DNA of 64,000 nt. Origin: Leuctra nigra. Its lineage: Eukaryota > Arthropoda > Insecta > Plecoptera > Leuctridae. Every line of letters begins with the position of its first letter. Position 1 is the stretch's first letter. Shown one piece after another: positions 58,301 through 64,000 of this stretch. The notes under the pieces were generated by a model, which ran no database searches, was not told the origin of the DNA, and worked only from the letters and a program-made list of their open reading frames with translations. The DNA lies in the NCBI GenBank assembly GCA_934045905.1, contig OW203762.1, positions 43,983,411-44,047,410 on the forward strand, in the 5' to 3' direction. Position numbers and translations under genes: made by a program.

Positions 58301-61300
58301 GCTGGATGATCACCATCTAATATTCATATTGTCTGAATGAGACTGCACATACTTCCTGGACTTGCAAAACGCGTTTCCACCACATATATATGCCAAGCTT
58401 ATTGCTGCGACCATAAGTGCTTCACATTTGTTTCCACTATTCAGATCTAGTAATTCTCAGTTGTTCAGAGAAGCAGAATTTGAAGAAATGGGGTAAAAAG
58501 AAATGCATACTGCACTTGTAATATGGACAAATATGAACCGCCATTACTTTGCTCCTAATGGTATGTGTGGTCTCTTTATAACTCGCAGTTTAGCTAACGA
58601 TTGTCTCTGGATTGTTTTAGACGAACAGGGTGAGCCACCCGCCCCTGGCACAGGGATGGAGTATTCGTCTGGACCAGTTTATGACATCTCGCAAGCAGGC
58701 CAGCTTGTGGCAGGTTAGTTCAATTTATGGTACCTAACTACTTAATTGTTTTGGTTGAAATTTTACTTACAACATGGGTTGAAACCACCAGTTGGTGACA
58801 AACCAATTGCAGGCAGCCAGACCTAGAGGAGATGCATCTTGTAAATGCAATAGAGTTGTGCTTATTTTAAGGTCTCTTCTCTTCAGAATGTGAAATTAAT
58901 TTTGAAAACTACTTTAAATGGGGGAAGTTGTCGACCTGACAACTCATATTAAATGTTTAATGTTTTTCTGCAAACAGTGCAGAAACCGATGTGAAATGGC
59001 TTAAATTTTAGGGTTGTTTAAATTTCGACCAACCCATAATAACATTTTACTAAAGAACCTAGAAAAAGATATATGTAAAACCAAAAATACGCTCTGTGTT
59101 TAAGCATCATCAAGCGAGCAGAGCAAGGGTTTCCTCTTGAAACTTATGGCTTGAATCTCTGTTTTTTTTTGTCTGTGTGTGTATTATTCATCTCTTGCCA
59201 AAGGAAGTAACGGATCAGGCCAATTTTTACACAAAACTTGAATGGCATTCAGCAAGATCGGTCCATTGGTTTCATTGGAAATTGCATTTAGGAACCATAG
59301 CAACGAAGTCTTTTACAAATTACCTAGTACTATGATCACTGCAAATTTCTGTAGTTGGTACTTCCTGGAGACAGTGACATTTATTTTCAACATTGACAAT
59401 TCGTCTTTGACATTGAATGTACACTCCTGAACACTGAAATTGGCCCGCGGTCAATGTTCGGCCCTAAACTCACACAAGCCATCCGGTCTTTGTGGCAAAA
59501 ATTACATTAAAATAAATGTTAAATACTAGCGTGTTTGCAACTTCACTGAAAATCTGCACGGTAGCACAACAAGATGACAAATAATTTGTTTTTCATGTGT
59601 TTTTTCTATTACCTAGAAGGGGTGAATGGATTCAATGGAAACAACTTATGATGGACTGTAGAACATTTGACAGATTTTTGTGAAAATATCATCTTTTTCC
59701 CATTACAATTAATTTTTCTAACAAATATTGAAATTTTTAAAAGCTTGTGAATACCTATACCGGGTGTTGCAAAAAAACGCACAATGGGTGAGACATCGCT
59801 GTGACGAAACTACTGCATACATTGTGTTGAAAATTTCACATAATATAAACAACATACTATACACATAACATATTGTGTGAAAGTTTCAAAAACATTACTT
59901 TTGTTCGAAAAAAGTTACAGCTGCTCGAATTTGGTTGCCGAAAAATCGATTATACGAAGCTCAAATAGCCCGCGCATAAAAAAACGTCCATTAGCCGGGA
60001 CGCTGTTTCATCAAAACTGCTTACGATATCATTCTGAAAAATTTTAATTTTTAGCAAAATATATTGCTATAAATTAAAAAAAATTTAATAAATGGGGGTC
60101 AATGGAACAAAAGTTATGGTGTCTTCAAGTTGAGCCAAAAAACAGAATATAATTTTTAAGTTTTATTATACCTACGCGCAATAATTTAAAAAGTGTAATT
60201 ATCTCGCGCTAGTTCTGCTTTTAATCTCAAATTCAAGGAACCATAACTGCCGTTCAATTTATTCAAATTTATTCAAATTTTTACACCAATGATGGCAATA
60301 TATTGTGCATAAAATTTGAAATTTTCAGCTTGTTATCATGCGCAGTTTTGAATAAACAGCGACCCAATCAATGCACGTTTTCTGGACGCGCCCTATTTGA
60401 GCTCCGTATAGTAATCGATTTTTCGACAACCAAATTCGAACTGCTGTAACTTTTCCCACAAATGTTATGTTTTTGAAACTCTCACACATTAAAGATCAGT
60501 AAGTTGTTCAGAATAATAATCTATCCGCTGGTTCTAATTTAATGGGTCAGGGGGTGGGTGTTCCCACCAACACTAGGGCCGCAGGACTACTGGAGACCGG
60601 CTGGCCACGCCTGGCGTCTCCTCCTCGTCTTCTTCTTCTTCCTCCATTTCCAATTGTTCCACAAATTGCCTCCACCTTGTTCTGTCCTCCCACTGTCTCT
60701 CAGCCTCCAACTCATTCCAACTTCCTCCTCTCTCCAAAACATCATCCTTAATAACTCCAATCCACCTCTCTCTTGGTCTTCCTACTCTACGTGGTCCCGA
60801 AGTAGCCGACTCAAACACCCGCCGTGGCACTCGCCCTGTTCCCATCCTCTTCATGTGGCCAAACCACCGAAGCCTCTCTCTGCCCAATTTAAACCCCAAT
60901 CTCTCTACCCCCAGCTCACTTCTTATCTTCTAACTTCGGATCTTGTCCATTCTTATGACTCCCTTCACACTCCTCAAGAAGGGAGTCGGGGGGAAGGTTG
61001 TTTATATTGTGTCAAATTTTAAGCCCAATGTATGCAGTTGTTTCGTCACAGGGATGACTCGGCCATTGTGCGTTTTTTATGCGCCACCCGGTAGATATCT
61101 TTTAAGCATATGATTCTACAGTTCTATAATAATAAGCTAGTTTCATCTTTCTGAGATCATCAGTTTTCTTGGAAAAAAATAATTGCGAAACTGAAATTTC
61201 CCATTCGAACGGCCTTGATTCACTAGGTAGCGCTATCTATTGGTTTGGTACGTTTAGGGTCAAATGTTGTCTTCATAGCTGTTTCCAAGGTCTATACGAG

Positions 61301-63080
61301 ACTTAAAATTAGGATTCGGGATAGGAAATGTGTTTCAAGCACAAGTGCTTTGTACCATGGTCATAATACCACAGAGTGTTTTGAACAACTCTTCTGACCA
61401 CCCACCACAAGTGTGTGCTAGAATTATATCTTCCTCGCAACATTTGGTGTCAGAAGTAGGATATTCGGTAAGATGTTATAATGTGTGAGAGTTGGGTGGC
61501 CGTTACACAGAGGCATAATGGTGCTTTGTACAACTGGTGTGACTTTGTTATTGTTATACTTGTAACTTAACAAGAGCTTATTGAAGTACTTATTATTATC
61601 TATAATAATAGTAGGTACCTAGTACTGTTATTTTATTTTAACGAAAGGACATAAAATATAAAAAATCATTCTTTTAAAGTGGGTATCGCACTGGGTTGCA
61701 ACCCGTGACTGGAAACTTTTGTTGCATAAAGAGGCAAAAGCCTATCACAAGCAACGCTTTGGTTTAATGTTGTTTGGTTCACAATTGACACCCTGAGTTG
61801 CGCAGGAAGCAACGTTTCTGGATACTCACTATTGTTCGGATCACATCTTGTGGTACCAGAACAAATTGTTGGAACTCTCAGAATAGAGAAATCACTATAA
61901 CCAAATTCAGTCTGCACATGCGTGGACAACCACGATTTCTAGCCGCGTGCTCCAATCGCGGTTTGCAATGCAGTCTTCTTCCAAGTAGTTCTTGACTTTT
62001 TTCGAATCTCAATTTGTCAATAGACCATTTTAAATATTATCTCTGTGGCTCTGCTTTCTTACAAAAATCATATGCAGTATTATTTCCAGACACCTTAGTC
62101 CCTGTTTTACCTATTGTTGAAACAGGGACTAAGGTGTCTGGAAATAATACTGCATATGATTTTTCTTAGAAAGCAGAGCCACCGAGATAATATTTCAAAT
62201 GGTCTATTGCTTCTCTTGGCCATTTCCATTGAAATGGGGTTCGTCTATAAGTTAGTCTTCTCATCCCCAGGTCCCGGAGCTCGGAACAACATCACCATTC
62301 CAGGCCTCCTCGGTGCTGGGCTCAACAAGCTTAGCTCCGAGCAGCAGGAAGCCGTCACCCGAGCGAAGAAATATGCCATGGAGCAGAGCATCAAGATGGT
62401 GCTCATGAAACAGACCCTTGCACATCAGCAACTTGTAAGACTTCTTTCATTCTATCTAGCTCACAAAGTAGGACTAGTTCAAGCGATAAATGATTCACGA
62501 AAAATACATAGATTTTGATTGTTTTTTTCAATTTATTCCCAAGTACATAGATTCCAGAAACAATCATTTTAAGTACAAACTAGATAATAGGTTGGTACGT
62601 ACCTATCTCAAAATATATTTTCCGGCCTTGAAAGGAAGTTAGATTGTGAATATCCATTAAAATGCTTAATATCCACACTAATACAATCATTACTGTTCTA
62701 CTGCAGTGATGCTTTTTCTAGTGGGAAGCATTGGTTTTTTTATATCCTGATCTCATGTTATGGCTGTTTCGAGTATGTACATGTAATTGTACTCCTTAGT
62801 CTTGTTTTAATTTGTACTTGTGTTTCACAGCAAGCGATGTCCTTCCAGCGTCACCAAGCCATTGCGCTGATGTGCAGGTTAGTGTGGGTGGTCAGGTAGT
62901 CAAGATGATTGTGTGTTTCCCCAGGTGTTGGCAGATCGGCAGTGTATGGGCGGGGGTGGGCCCTCTTATAAGCAGTACTATCGCGTTCTAACGTCGGGTG
63001 ACGCTTTGTCTCTTGTTGCAGCAAATGGCTAGTCAAAGGAGTCAGGTTCAAAGACAGCAGGCCCTCGCCCTTATGTGCAG
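40349..63080 (+). CDS. PUF60: PUF60 / half pint splicing factor, 5' part (gene-level entry, runs off the window)
   Basis: Exons 40349-40396, 48243-48309, 58621-58713, 62271-62434 and then either 62831-62877 or 63022-63080 join in phase. The predicted N-terminus starts [16 protein letters not shown], continues with a short basic MKKMKLE motif and contains [20 protein letters not shown], close to vertebrate PUF60 [20 protein letters not shown]. It ends IALMC or LALMC, just before RRM1, whose exons lie beyond base 64000. In the family the protein binds U-rich tracts near 3' splice sites together with U2AF and also acts as a transcriptional repressor (FIR). Introns 1-3 are 7.8, 10.3 and 3.6 kb and filled with repeats. 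Confidence 0.9.
41075..41842. mobile_element. Non-autonomous hAT-like element, 768 bp
   Basis: CTTGCTAA is duplicated exactly at 41067-41074 and 41843-41850; the ends are inverted CAGTGGCGGTTTGTG. The interior contains open frames in both strands without recognisable protein. Confidence 0.88.
41954..42440. mobile_element. Candidate TIR element, ~490 bp, GCGC-rich ends
   Basis: Inverted ends GGGTGTGTTTGA with nearby GCGCGC-type words (TTGCGCGCTGGG, CGCGCGGAGTTATC). No clear target duplication, so superfamily undetermined; GGGTGTTTG-type ends occur in PIF/Harbinger elements. Confidence 0.55.
42715..43968. mobile_element. Non-autonomous hAT-like element, 1254 bp
   Basis: GGCCTAAC duplicated exactly at 42707-42714 and 43969-43976; inverted ends TAGTGATGGGCA followed by repeated GAAATTTATGAAA/TTTCGAAA words. 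Contains the nested element at 43213-43764. TAGTGATGGGCA is a classic hAT-type end. Confidence 0.9.
43213..43764. mobile_element. Harbinger-like MITE, 552 bp, nested in the hAT-like element
   Basis: TTA on both flanks (43210-43212, 43765-43767); inverted ends TACCC(T/C)GTTC(T/C)CACTACA. Subterminal copies of CAACCGCGGTTGA/CAACTGCAGTT. The 60-residue frame at 43402-43584 lies inside it but has no recognised homology. Confidence 0.8.
45905..46049. repeat. Arm of the large palindromic element, left half
   Basis: Matches the end region seen near 35400-35490 and 32090-32180 (ACTAGTGGCGCCCTCAAAGC, GTCAATCTTAACGAGTTCAG). The other half resumes at 47892, so the sequence between is an insertion. Confidence 0.65.
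46050..46442. repeat. Near-perfect inverted repeat, two ~151-bp arms, 90-bp loop
   Basis: 46050-46201 and 46292-46442 are complementary along their whole length; the only difference I find is one extra A in a homopolymer at the outer end. Landmarks are TACCAGCCAAGTCTCTTC and TACTTGGCGCATCG. It would fold into a long, almost uninterrupted RNA stem when transcribed as part of PUF60 intron 1. Confidence 0.92.
46600..47640 (+). repeat. Tandem array, four units of about 270 bp
   Basis: The motif ACTTCCGGTTT(C/A)AAAATGGCGGC or a close variant occurs at about 46657, 46926, 47192 and 47464, spaced 266-272 bases. Each is preceded by GAGATATGACGTCAC-like and CGTTTGGCGC-like words. Units have diverged noticeably. 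Confidence 0.78.
47892..48025. repeat. Arm of the large palindromic element, right half
   Basis: Continues the arm broken off at 46049: ACATCGCGAAATAACAG, CAATCGGCATATTTCATTTC and ACTAGATGTCTATTCA match 32175-32300. Confidence 0.75.
48243..48309 (+). CDS. PUF60: PUF60 exon 2
   Basis: 67 nt between TTGTAG and GTAAGT. In the frame set by exon 1 it encodes [20 protein letters not shown] then LE; the basic KKMK could be a nuclear-localisation element. The other two frames give either a stop or an implausible peptide. It ends in phase 1, matching exon 3. Confidence 0.75.
49746..49906. mobile_element. tRNA-like palindrome (64-bp arms, 33-bp loop)
   Basis: 49746-49809 and 49843-49906 are complementary with two mismatches in 64. 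The plus strand across loop and right arm reads as a tRNA: TAGCTCAGTTGGTAGAGC (D-arm, perfect A-box), anticodon stem CTCGC/GTGAG with GGC anticodon, and T-arm CCGGGTTTGAGCCCCGG. Position 33 is G instead of the near-universal T. The minus strand of the left arm carries a perfect B-box (GGTTCGAGCCC). The 5' acceptor half has been replaced by the palindrome, so a functional tRNA is unlikely; SINE-type origin is possible. Confidence 0.82.
49998..50572. mobile_element. Harbinger-like MITE, 575 bp, with GGGTTGCGG-type repeats
   Basis: TAA on both flanks (49995-49997, 50573-50575). Ends are about 45-bp inverted repeats starting AGGCCCATGC; both contain AACCCGCAGCCGCAACCCGT. Further copies of GCAACCCGCA/GCCGTAGCCCG sit just inside each end. 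Non-coding. Confidence 0.82.
50652..51170. mobile_element. Candidate hAT-like element, ~519 bp
   Basis: Inverted ends (C/T)AGTGTTGGGTC; interior rich in TATCTAGATACA-like words. No clean 8-bp duplication, so boundaries are tentative. Confidence 0.5.
51185..51719. mobile_element. TTAA-flanked MITE, copy 2 (535 bp)
   Basis: TTAA at 51181-51184 and 51720-51723; ends GGTAG(C/T)AC inverted. Interior matches 24101-24624, notably CTTCTCGTGTCTAG and AATACCAACGTGTGCTATTT. Confidence 0.78.
52145..52680. mobile_element. Harbinger-like MITE, 536 bp
   Basis: TTA on both flanks (52142-52144, 52681-52683); about 28-bp inverted ends starting AGCCGCGTTTACAACAAAAT. The motif AAAATTAACG is repeated just inside each end. 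Non-coding. Confidence 0.85.
54085..54235. mobile_element. Small Harbinger-like MITE, 151 bp
   Basis: TTA on both flanks (54082-54084, 54236-54238); inverted ends ACCCT(G/T)TCTACA(C/T)GCTC. A diverged copy is at 25167-25312. Confidence 0.7.
55541..56702. mobile_element. Composite element, decayed inverted copy
   Basis: Read on the minus strand it repeats the order of 46050-47891: a decayed hairpin region (about 56355-56702, with GACTTGGCTGGTATTTTTAC), two diverged tandem-unit fragments (TGACGTCATATC at about 55945) and the end CAGCTCCACTAG (complement at 55543-55554). The hairpin arms here are heavily mutated, so this copy is much older. Confidence 0.7.
58621..58713 (+). CDS. PUF60: PUF60 exon 3
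   Basis: 93 nt between TTTTAG and GTTAGT; encodes [18 protein letters not shown] then [14 protein letters not shown], the glycine codon being split with exon 4. This linker is not part of the shorter mammalian N-terminus I know, so support rests on phase, splice sites and proline/acidic composition. Confidence 0.75.
59760..61091. mobile_element. Foldback, TA-flanked element, 1332 bp, with inserted LINE
   Basis: Flanked by TA (59758-59759, 61092-61093); ends CCGGGTG inverted, followed by AAAAAACGCACAATGG and TGTGACGAAAC on both sides. Long arms continue inward, for example ATCGATTATACGAAGCTCAA near 59948 and its complement near 60390-60420. The right arm is split by the LINE fragment at 60541-60985. 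Confidence 0.75.
60541..60985 (-). mobile_element. LINE 3' fragment, divergent third copy
   Basis: The minus strand encodes [16 protein letters not shown], a stop, then [19 protein letters not shown] and [14 protein letters not shown], clearly related to the copies at 1-411 and 26443-27249 but well diverged. It shares the 3' GGGTCAGGGGGTGGG motif near 60543. 5'-truncated. Confidence 0.82.
62018..62209. repeat. 90-bp inverted repeat with 12-bp loop upstream of PUF60 exon 4
   Basis: 62018-62107 pairs with 62120-62209 with about four mismatches, the inner 45 bp being perfect (ending ACACCTTAGTCCCTGTTT). It ends 61 bases before the 3' splice site at 62270. Arm sequence is shared with 39659-39862, so it is a mobile foldback. 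Confidence 0.88.
62271..62434 (+). CDS. PUF60: PUF60 exon 4
   Basis: 164 nt after CCCCAG, donor GTAAGA. Encodes [20 protein letters not shown] then [20 protein letters not shown] and [12 protein letters not shown]. The block [10 protein letters not shown] is identical to vertebrate PUF60, which continues SVLVKQTIAHQQ. This is the conserved N-terminal helix preceding RRM1. Phase 0 at its 3' end. Confidence 0.95.
62831..62877 (+). CDS. PUF60: PUF60 exon 5a (alternative)
   Basis: 47 nt between TTCACAG and GTTAGT; encodes [15 protein letters not shown] plus a split arginine. Vertebrate PUF60 has QSMAAQRQRALAIMCR here, directly before RRM1 (VYVG). It is homologous in place and sequence to exon 5b, 144 bases downstream. 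Confidence 0.85.
63022..63080 (+). CDS. PUF60: PUF60 exon 5b (alternative)
   Basis: 59 nt between TTGCAG and GTTAGC; encodes [19 protein letters not shown] plus a split arginine. Same entry phase (0) and exit phase (2) as exon 5a, and both end ALMC-R. Lengths 47 and 59 are each 2 modulo 3, so using both exons would shift the frame; they should be mutually exclusive. Confidence 0.85.
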
Positions 63081-64000
63081 GTTAGCATTACCCATTTCAT
63101 TTGCCATCAGGGAGGGGTGTGCATACAAAAATTTAGTTGATCAAAATGGGGTGCGTCTATATTGAACCGATGTAATGCTGCTAGTAAAGCCTCCCCGGGG
63201 ATTTACGTTACATAAAACTGCATTTTCTGGTTTGCCAACACTTATCGGATTCCCACTTGTTTTGCACTTGATTGACGAGTTTTTGCCAGTCGTATGCACA
63301 CCCCTTCAGGCTCATTTACTTTTTTTGCAGTGTGATGTAAATTTTTTCTGTGAACAGATGGTTGAGCACCAAGTTGTAACTTGTTGTTGACTCCCAACTT
63401 GAATGAGCATTTTGCTGATAAGATCTGACTGCATAATAGAAGTACCACATTTCCTTTTGTACTGCATGCCTAAAATAAGTTTATAAGTTTGTTAATTTAC
63501 ATACTTAACCTATCTGGCAATGTCTGGGAATTATGTTAATCATACATATTAAATTGTAAGTTCTTATTACTTTATAAGACATTAAGTATTAAGGATTTGT
63601 TATTCTGTATTTGTTCTACGCTCTTTGTCTTGTCTATATTTTCATCAAATTATTGAATTCTATGCGATATTGATGCCTGATCAATAAGGTCCAGCTAATT
63701 TCTTGATAGTGGTGAATGGGTTATTAATTATTGATAATCCATATAATTTACTTGCCATATGCCTAGGGTTCTTAATTGGTATCATATTAGACATTGTCTT
63801 CCAAATTCATCAGAATATCAATTTATTAAAAATAACTTTGTGCAAATTTGTTACTAAATAATATGTAGTAAGATGCACACTGAGAAGCATGAGATGAAAT
63901 TGTTGATTCCTCTGAAACTACAAGTAACAAACCAATCGAGTACCTATTCGGATCTTGTGACATGAGATACCTACTTGAATGGAGTGTGTTCTGCATTTAT
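63081..64000. other. PUF60 intron 5 (partial)
   Basis: No exon is recognisable before the window ends; RRM1 should begin further right. Open frames at 63175-63390 and opposite have no homology. Confidence 0.55.

Follow-up and report, generated by a model that had tools for sequence, protein, structure and literature searches.

Does the PUF60 gene of a stonefly choose between two versions of one exon, and what would such a choice change in a 3' splice-site factor? The question is raised by a stretch of 64,000 nucleotides on chromosome 2 of Leuctra nigra (contig C2, positions 43983411-44047410; the window, below), the published genome of which comprises 536.3 Mb in 13 chromosomal pseudomolecules (PMC10280035; here and below, papers are cited for those of their passages that bear on the point). 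In this window, an earlier inspection of the letters alone, the original prediction, had singled out two short neighboring exons just before the first RNA recognition motif (RRM1) of the encoded protein; these are called here 5a and 5b (the exon numbering is our own). We put at roughly 0.75 the probability that 5a and 5b form a mutually exclusive pair that is conserved and functional and that alters the helix preceding RRM1.

Two homologous exons in the PUF60 gene

The coordinates of the two exons, their lengths (47 and 59 nucleotides), the 144-nucleotide gap between them, and the end of the upstream exon at 62434 are all as originally given. When the window exons are joined to the downstream exons from the same assembly, the resulting protein scores 740.8 bits against TIGR01645, the curated half-pint profile (cut-off, 443.95), and contains three RRM_1 stretches (Pfam), namely, the tandem RRM1-RRM2 and a C-terminal RRM of the UHM type; the model of the Periplaneta homolog matches the human RRM1-2 and UHM chains. 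Judged by its sequence, the gene holding the exon pair is PUF60 (half pint, hfp), as had been claimed. Past the end of the window, eight more coding exons were located as far as the stop codon, the first of which encodes RRM1; toward the 5' end, PUF60 exons were sought as far as window position 58621. The possibility that the whole gene and not the exon is duplicated was considered and rejected: there is no second copy of PUF60 among the 49 protein matches in the genome (only the best candidates being scored), of which 5 are the PUF60 locus and the other 44 show at most 45% identity.

The peptides encoded by 5a and 5b align without gaps over 15 residues, with a local alignment score of 45 that was equaled in 0 of 50000 shuffles, which bears out the claimed homology. 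At the DNA level, the likeness is confined to 31 nucleotides at 81%, comprising the end of the exon and the first bases of the donor, and the exon-to-exon score of 22 is matched in 33 of the 12790 scanning positions, 11 of which fall on 5a and 5b and the remaining 22 at other places in the 64 kb. The introns flanking 5a and 5b show no likeness to each other. Taken alone, the DNA similarity is not significant, and the homology rests on the peptides. Because the DNA is scarcely alike and the introns are unlike, with the peptides far above chance, the duplication is, on sequence grounds, old, and the different introns argue against a recent or artificial copy. The insignificant DNA-level score is what can be said for a chance resemblance or an assembly artefact, an explanation that we reject as next to impossible given the shuffling result, the unlike introns, and the recurrence of the same two forms in many insects.

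One exon per full-length mRNA

The lengths of both exons equal 2 modulo 3. Each exon starts with the codon CAA at a codon boundary and ends with the bases AG, the codon being completed by G, the first base of the RRM1 exon. In the gene assembled from the window and the adjoining assembly, the frame stays open to the stop codon with 5a alone or with 5b alone; with both exons included, translation stops at nucleotides 30-32 of the RRM1 exon, and with both omitted, at nucleotides 19-21. Because both exons or neither shift the frame into an early stop in the RRM1 exon, a full-length mRNA contains one of them, and double inclusion as a normal product is rejected; the equal phases and the break of the frame had been read correctly from the sequence. 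The splice sites of both exons are canonical GT/AG, and the donors (GTTAGT after 5a and GTTAGC after 5b, with GTAAGA after exon 4) score 9.0 for 5a and 7.4 for 5b, within the range of 4.4-10.7 for nine other PUF60 donors (by a consensus matrix), in line with the good splice sites originally noted. We consider it very likely that 5a and 5b are mutually exclusive, such that exactly one of them would be used per full-length PUF60 mRNA; the same claim in the original prediction gains support from the database proteins, which carry one form each in 20 species (see below).

Several exon junctions lie 3' of the early stop in both the both-exon and the no-exon products. Because exon junctions remain downstream of the stop, these mRNAs should be targets of nonsense-mediated decay under the general rule. 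The same two products are the starting point of a different explanation, which we regard as unlikely: the pair would serve chiefly as a dosage switch rather than as a source of two proteins, whereby PUF60, acting on the U-rich 3' splice sites of 5a and 5b, would set the fraction of unproductive transcripts lost to decay and thus limit its own level; this corresponds to the autoregulation inferred in the original prediction. Besides the early stops with exon junctions downstream, this explanation can draw on the acceptor tract of 5a, which is U/UG-rich (U fraction of 0.62 at positions -25 to -5), on the UG-rich tracts that precede PUF60-activated mutually exclusive exons in human cells (PMC7969005), and on the reported influence of PUF60 on the duplicated exons of U2AF1 (PMC5224494) and OGDH (PMC7969005). 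However, the 5a tract is ordinary for the PUF60 gene (U fractions of 0.43-0.71 over 12 acceptors, the value for exon 10 being three bases out of register), and a pure dosage device does not need the near-constant sequence that both forms display across insects.

Two forms of the segment across arthropods

Three protein searches, from which the best 120 of 1980, 1331, and 506 matches were taken, respectively, yielded 286 different homologs, and a species table could be compiled for 175 of these proteins, from 112 named species; the statements on distribution that follow apply among these listed matches. The segment before RRM1 fits either the 15-residue form encoded by 5a or the 19-residue form encoded by 5b in 283 of the 286 homologs. 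The 15-residue form is found in 148 of the 283, with 27 distinct sequences, and the 19-residue form, in 135, with 8 distinct sequences, so that 5b is nearly invariant; the 5b segment of the window is identical in at least 11 homologs, and the 5a segment best matches, at 14 of 15 residues, a cockroach form. Both forms are on record, one per record, in 20 of the 112 tabulated species (Periplaneta americana, Photinus pyralis, Gryllus longicercus, and 17 Hymenoptera). Only two of the 286 homologs, from Gryllus bimaculatus and Habropoda laboriosa, combine both forms in one database model, with extra residues between them and in the same order as in the window, 5a followed by 5b. The conservation of the pair in related insects, a check that the original prediction had called for, is thus positive, and the pair recurs widely.

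Outside Neoptera, all 25 tabulated species (18 crustaceans, 3 springtails, 2 odonates, 1 mite, and 1 millipede) show the 15-residue form only, and the human chains also have 15 residues at the segment matching 5a. The odonate Ischnura elegans has five isoforms, all of the 15-residue form, even though it was the query with the 5b protein that brought them up; most of the other non-neopteran records came from the 5a-segment query, so that the absence of 5b there is not proven, and, in general, counts of species with one form reflect the query used and are not readable as losses. The 19-residue form was encountered in no group other than Neoptera; Drosophila hfp, we presume, also carries a segment of the 5b type. 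Because the 15-residue form is widespread outside Neoptera and the 19-residue form is found only within, the duplication that gave rise to 5b probably dates to early Neoptera: 5a would retain the ancestral length, and 5b would have arisen by tandem duplication with a gain of four residues. In Hymenoptera, 5a has diverged to KNKLVLRQQVLLLMC, which is constant in 28 proteins. This constancy and the near-invariance of 5b are what would be expected if both exons are under selection, and 5a and 5b indeed look constrained, for different sequences.

Several records are of interest in their own right. The 5b record of Gryllus longicercus begins inside 5b, and both this record and that of Polistes fuscatus start at a methionine within the exon (MASQR...); 5b may thus double as a second start of translation, giving a protein that lacks the upstream helix. 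A record labeled Sphagnum jensenii, a moss, carries QQKSLQRHQALVLMC, the same segment as in the mite Tetranychus urticae, and is probably an animal contamination of the moss assembly. Among the homologs compared, there is also a difference of one residue, NIKVGRP vs NIKVVGRP, at the junction of exons 6 and 7 (64257 / 66177 in extended window coordinates), possibly through a further small alternative splice.

A predicted longer helix before RRM1

Two Periplaneta isoforms were modeled with AlphaFold from separate alignments of 5a-type and 5b-type sequences (33 and 30 chosen sequences). A single helix is predicted at residues 103-149 of the 5a isoform and at residues 103-153 of the 5b isoform, with the first strand of RRM1 one residue later; the predicted helix is 4 residues longer with 5b than with 5a, and the helix blocks have predicted local distance difference test (pLDDT) values of 72-87. 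The human crystal chain 7q8a aligns to the 5a model from residue 135 over 194 of 194 residues, with a root-mean-square deviation of 1.4, and because the aligned range covers the swapped segment (136-150), the human structure lends experimental support to the position of this segment beside RRM1; the distal part of the helix, encoded by exon 4, is known from the prediction only. A structure search with exon 4 and 5a alone produced no match to a solved structure at E-values up to 1; with the query extended by RRM1-2, human chains match, beginning at or near the swapped segment. The last residue of the swapped segment lies three residues ahead of the RNP2 tyrosine in RRM1. According to the models, the exon of the pair appears to set the length and the face of the helix leading into RRM1, outside the RNA-binding sheet. 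The original claim that exon choice switches the RNA-binding region itself is not supported in that wording: the segment is predicted to form the end of a helix and not to belong to the RNA-binding sheet.

In the mechanism that we propose, the exon of the pair would encode the last part of a long helix running into the first strand of RRM1, and the choice of 5b would extend this helix by about one turn (four residues) and change its surface. From the geometry of an ideal helix, the N-terminal part would lie about 6 angstrom further out and be turned by about 40 degrees relative to RRM1. The most likely effect, by analogy with human exon 5, would be to tune the contacts of PUF60 with partners at the 3' splice site, such that the favored sites shift. 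We propose a switch of helix length because alternative exon 5 of human PUF60 varies the same junction: when PUF60 lacking exons 2 and 5 is overproduced, a cryptic 3' splice site of UBE2F is used more, and both exons appear to contribute (PMC6093180). That the 5b-dependent helix length affects splice-site choice is a tentative proposition, somewhat short of even odds. The wider notion of a helical ruler, by which insects (duplicated exon, one added helical turn) and vertebrates (cassette exon 5) independently vary the same PUF60 junction and generally retune 3' splice-site choice, is more doubtful.

Several points weigh against a functional, conserved pair that alters the helix. The models as a whole are of low confidence (predicted template modeling score of 0.36). 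The effect of omitting human exons 2 and 5 was seen for UBE2F and not for OGDH (PMC6093180). The isoform records are database gene models, the read support of which is not visible; the protein matches are the best 120 of the 1980, 1331, and 506 noted above, with species tabulated for 175 of the 286 proteins. In Leuctra itself, 5a has M at position 3, a site occupied by K or R in each of the 27 distinct 15-residue forms; this is a possible sign of relaxed constraint in the stonefly. The same departure lends some weight to the view that the pair is old but that Leuctra uses only 5b (or only 5a), the other exon being lost, as do the lineages with one form only, for example, the tabulated Lepidoptera, 13 of 13 with 5b only (mostly matches of the 5b query). 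Such a relic exon seems very unlikely to us: 5a is open and in frame, its donor outscores that of 5b, and it is otherwise identical to the cockroach form.

How exclusion could be achieved

An incompatibility of U2 and U12 splice sites is rejected, the donors of exons 4, 5a, and 5b being ordinary and not of the minor type as defined by the consensus for such donors. Steric exclusion operates when the branch point is within about 50 nucleotides of the upstream 5' splice site (PMC6093180), whereas the A of the candidate branch point in Leuctra (TTCTAAC from 62986), placed by sequence, lies about 113 nucleotides from the 5a donor.

Alternatively, RNA structure could set the exclusion, with the intron between 5a and 5b pairing with the intron after 5b and looping out 5b, so that 5a is the default until the structure is opened. 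Indeed, the best local duplex between the two introns has a predicted energy of -30.4 kcal/mol, and the long duplex is better than 100 of 100 shuffle pairs, compared with 13 of 100 and 28 of 100 shuffles that were as good for the other two intron pairs tried. Still, we hold this explanation to be quite unlikely: the local duplex, derived from a single sequence, is equaled by 7 of 200 shuffles, the pairing is the best of three tried, and the partner site sits between the arms of a 16-nucleotide inverted repeat that possibly belongs to a mobile element. For the mutually exclusive pair that we favor, loss of the frame together with decay of the wrong products would alone leave only two proteins visible.

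Layout of the locus

The positions of the PUF60 exons and introns and of the candidate pairing sites are given in Table 1. The inverted repeat in the intron after 5b has arms at 63111-63126 and 63292-63307, with TCAGG at the outer edges by eye, and the region 63111-63307 may be a small mobile-element remnant. A near-perfect foldback at 62018-62209, consisting of two 90-nucleotide arms that are 96% complementary and 12 nucleotides apart, ends 61 nucleotides before exon 4; in the transcript, the hairpin near the splice site would be very stable. An 18-nucleotide direct repeat, AAATGGGGTKCGTCTATA, is present at 62232-62249, before exon 4, and at 63144-63161, after 5b; these are its 2 matches in the window, with 0.08 expected, and 0 of 100 shuffles contain two. 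Further upstream in the intron before exon 4, the region 59760-61090 has ends that are, by eye, inverted copies (gcacaatgg ... ccattgtgc) and resembles an inserted mobile element. An Rfam scan of the window gave no match at the gathering score.

Table 1. Features of the PUF60 locus in the Leuctra nigra window (window coordinates unless noted)
Feature	Positions	Strand	Basis or remark
PUF60 coding exon 3, upstream of the pair	58621..58713	+	In-frame translation with exon 4; AG/GT boundaries
PUF60 coding exon 4, start of the predicted helix	62271..62434	+	Ends at a codon boundary; conserved among homologs
Intron before 5a	62435..62830	+	U-rich 3' end, tttgtacttgtgtttcacag
Exon 5a, 47 nucleotides, 15 residues, probable ancestral-length form	62831..62877	+	Frame; forms in homologs
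Intron between 5a and 5b, 144 nucleotides	62878..63021	+	Candidate branch point TTCTAAC from 62986
Candidate pairing site that would loop out 5b (weak evidence)	62918..62947	+	Pairs with 63216..63245
Exon 5b, 59 nucleotides, 19 residues, form seen only in Neoptera	63022..63080	+	Frame; forms in homologs
Intron after 5b	63081..64000 (window end); true end 64043, extended coordinates	+	RRM1 exon found beyond the window
Partner of the candidate pairing site, in the intron after 5b	63216..63245	+	Duplex prediction
RRM1 exon	64044-64257, extended coordinates (C2 44047454-44047667)	+	Beyond the window

Comparison with known systems

Isoforms of the PUF60 gene in the databases already show this difference, and mutually exclusive tandem exons are a known kind of arrangement. 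In searches of the open-licence literature, some of which listed part of the matching papers, we found no paper describing the 5a/5b pair; hfp and pUf68 are absent from the main text of PMC3303723 and PMC3923563, and PUF60, from the main text of PMC9741552.

The nearest known case of this kind of pair is that of exons Ab and 3 of vertebrate U2AF1 (U2AF35b/U2AF35a), likewise a 3' splice-site factor with tandem homologous exons of its own, one of which is used (PMC5224494). The gene and the lineage are different; furthermore, the choice in U2AF1 has been tested in cells, whereas the insect pair is known from sequence, and the PUF60 forms differ by four residues. Exons 4a/4b of OGDH and other pairs enforced by the branch point are neighboring homologous exons, too, with PUF60 as a known regulator (PMC7969005, PMC6093180), but exclusion there is enforced by a distant branch point located close to the 5' splice site, whereas the Leuctra candidate is about 113 nucleotides away. 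The insect clusters (Dscam1, Mhc, and the Kassiopeia set) likewise consist of homologous neighbors with the same phase and frame, one of which is used. The Kassiopeia paper expects a fixed exon length where the exon encodes a helix (PMC3923563), whereas 5a and 5b are similar but not fixed in length, and the four-residue difference falls inside a predicted helix.

Human PUF60 has its alternative exon 5 in the same gene and at the same place, just before RRM1; however, exon 5 is a cassette, in or out, rather than a homologous pair, and is, on present evidence, an independent event in vertebrates. The exon 5 peptide contains S112 and S116 (PMC6093180), and the RNP2 tyrosine is Y132 in the long human form (PMC7703929) and Y115 in the short form (PMC10229228), an offset of 17. 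In the human chain, a backward count identifies S116 with the serine of LQSMAAQ. Human exon 5, with the residue make-up that we presume it to have, would end just before, or overlap the first residues of, the segment matching 5a. Thus, vertebrates and insects each introduce variation at this PUF60 junction, in different ways. If both forms of this 3' splice-site factor have persisted side by side from early Neoptera onward, then many insects have two versions of PUF60/Hfp at their disposal, and the role of the segment before RRM1 could be learned from a bee, a cockroach, or a stonefly. With human PUF60 alternatively spliced at this position too, the insect pair amounts to a natural experiment with two states, on a part of the protein that is poorly understood.

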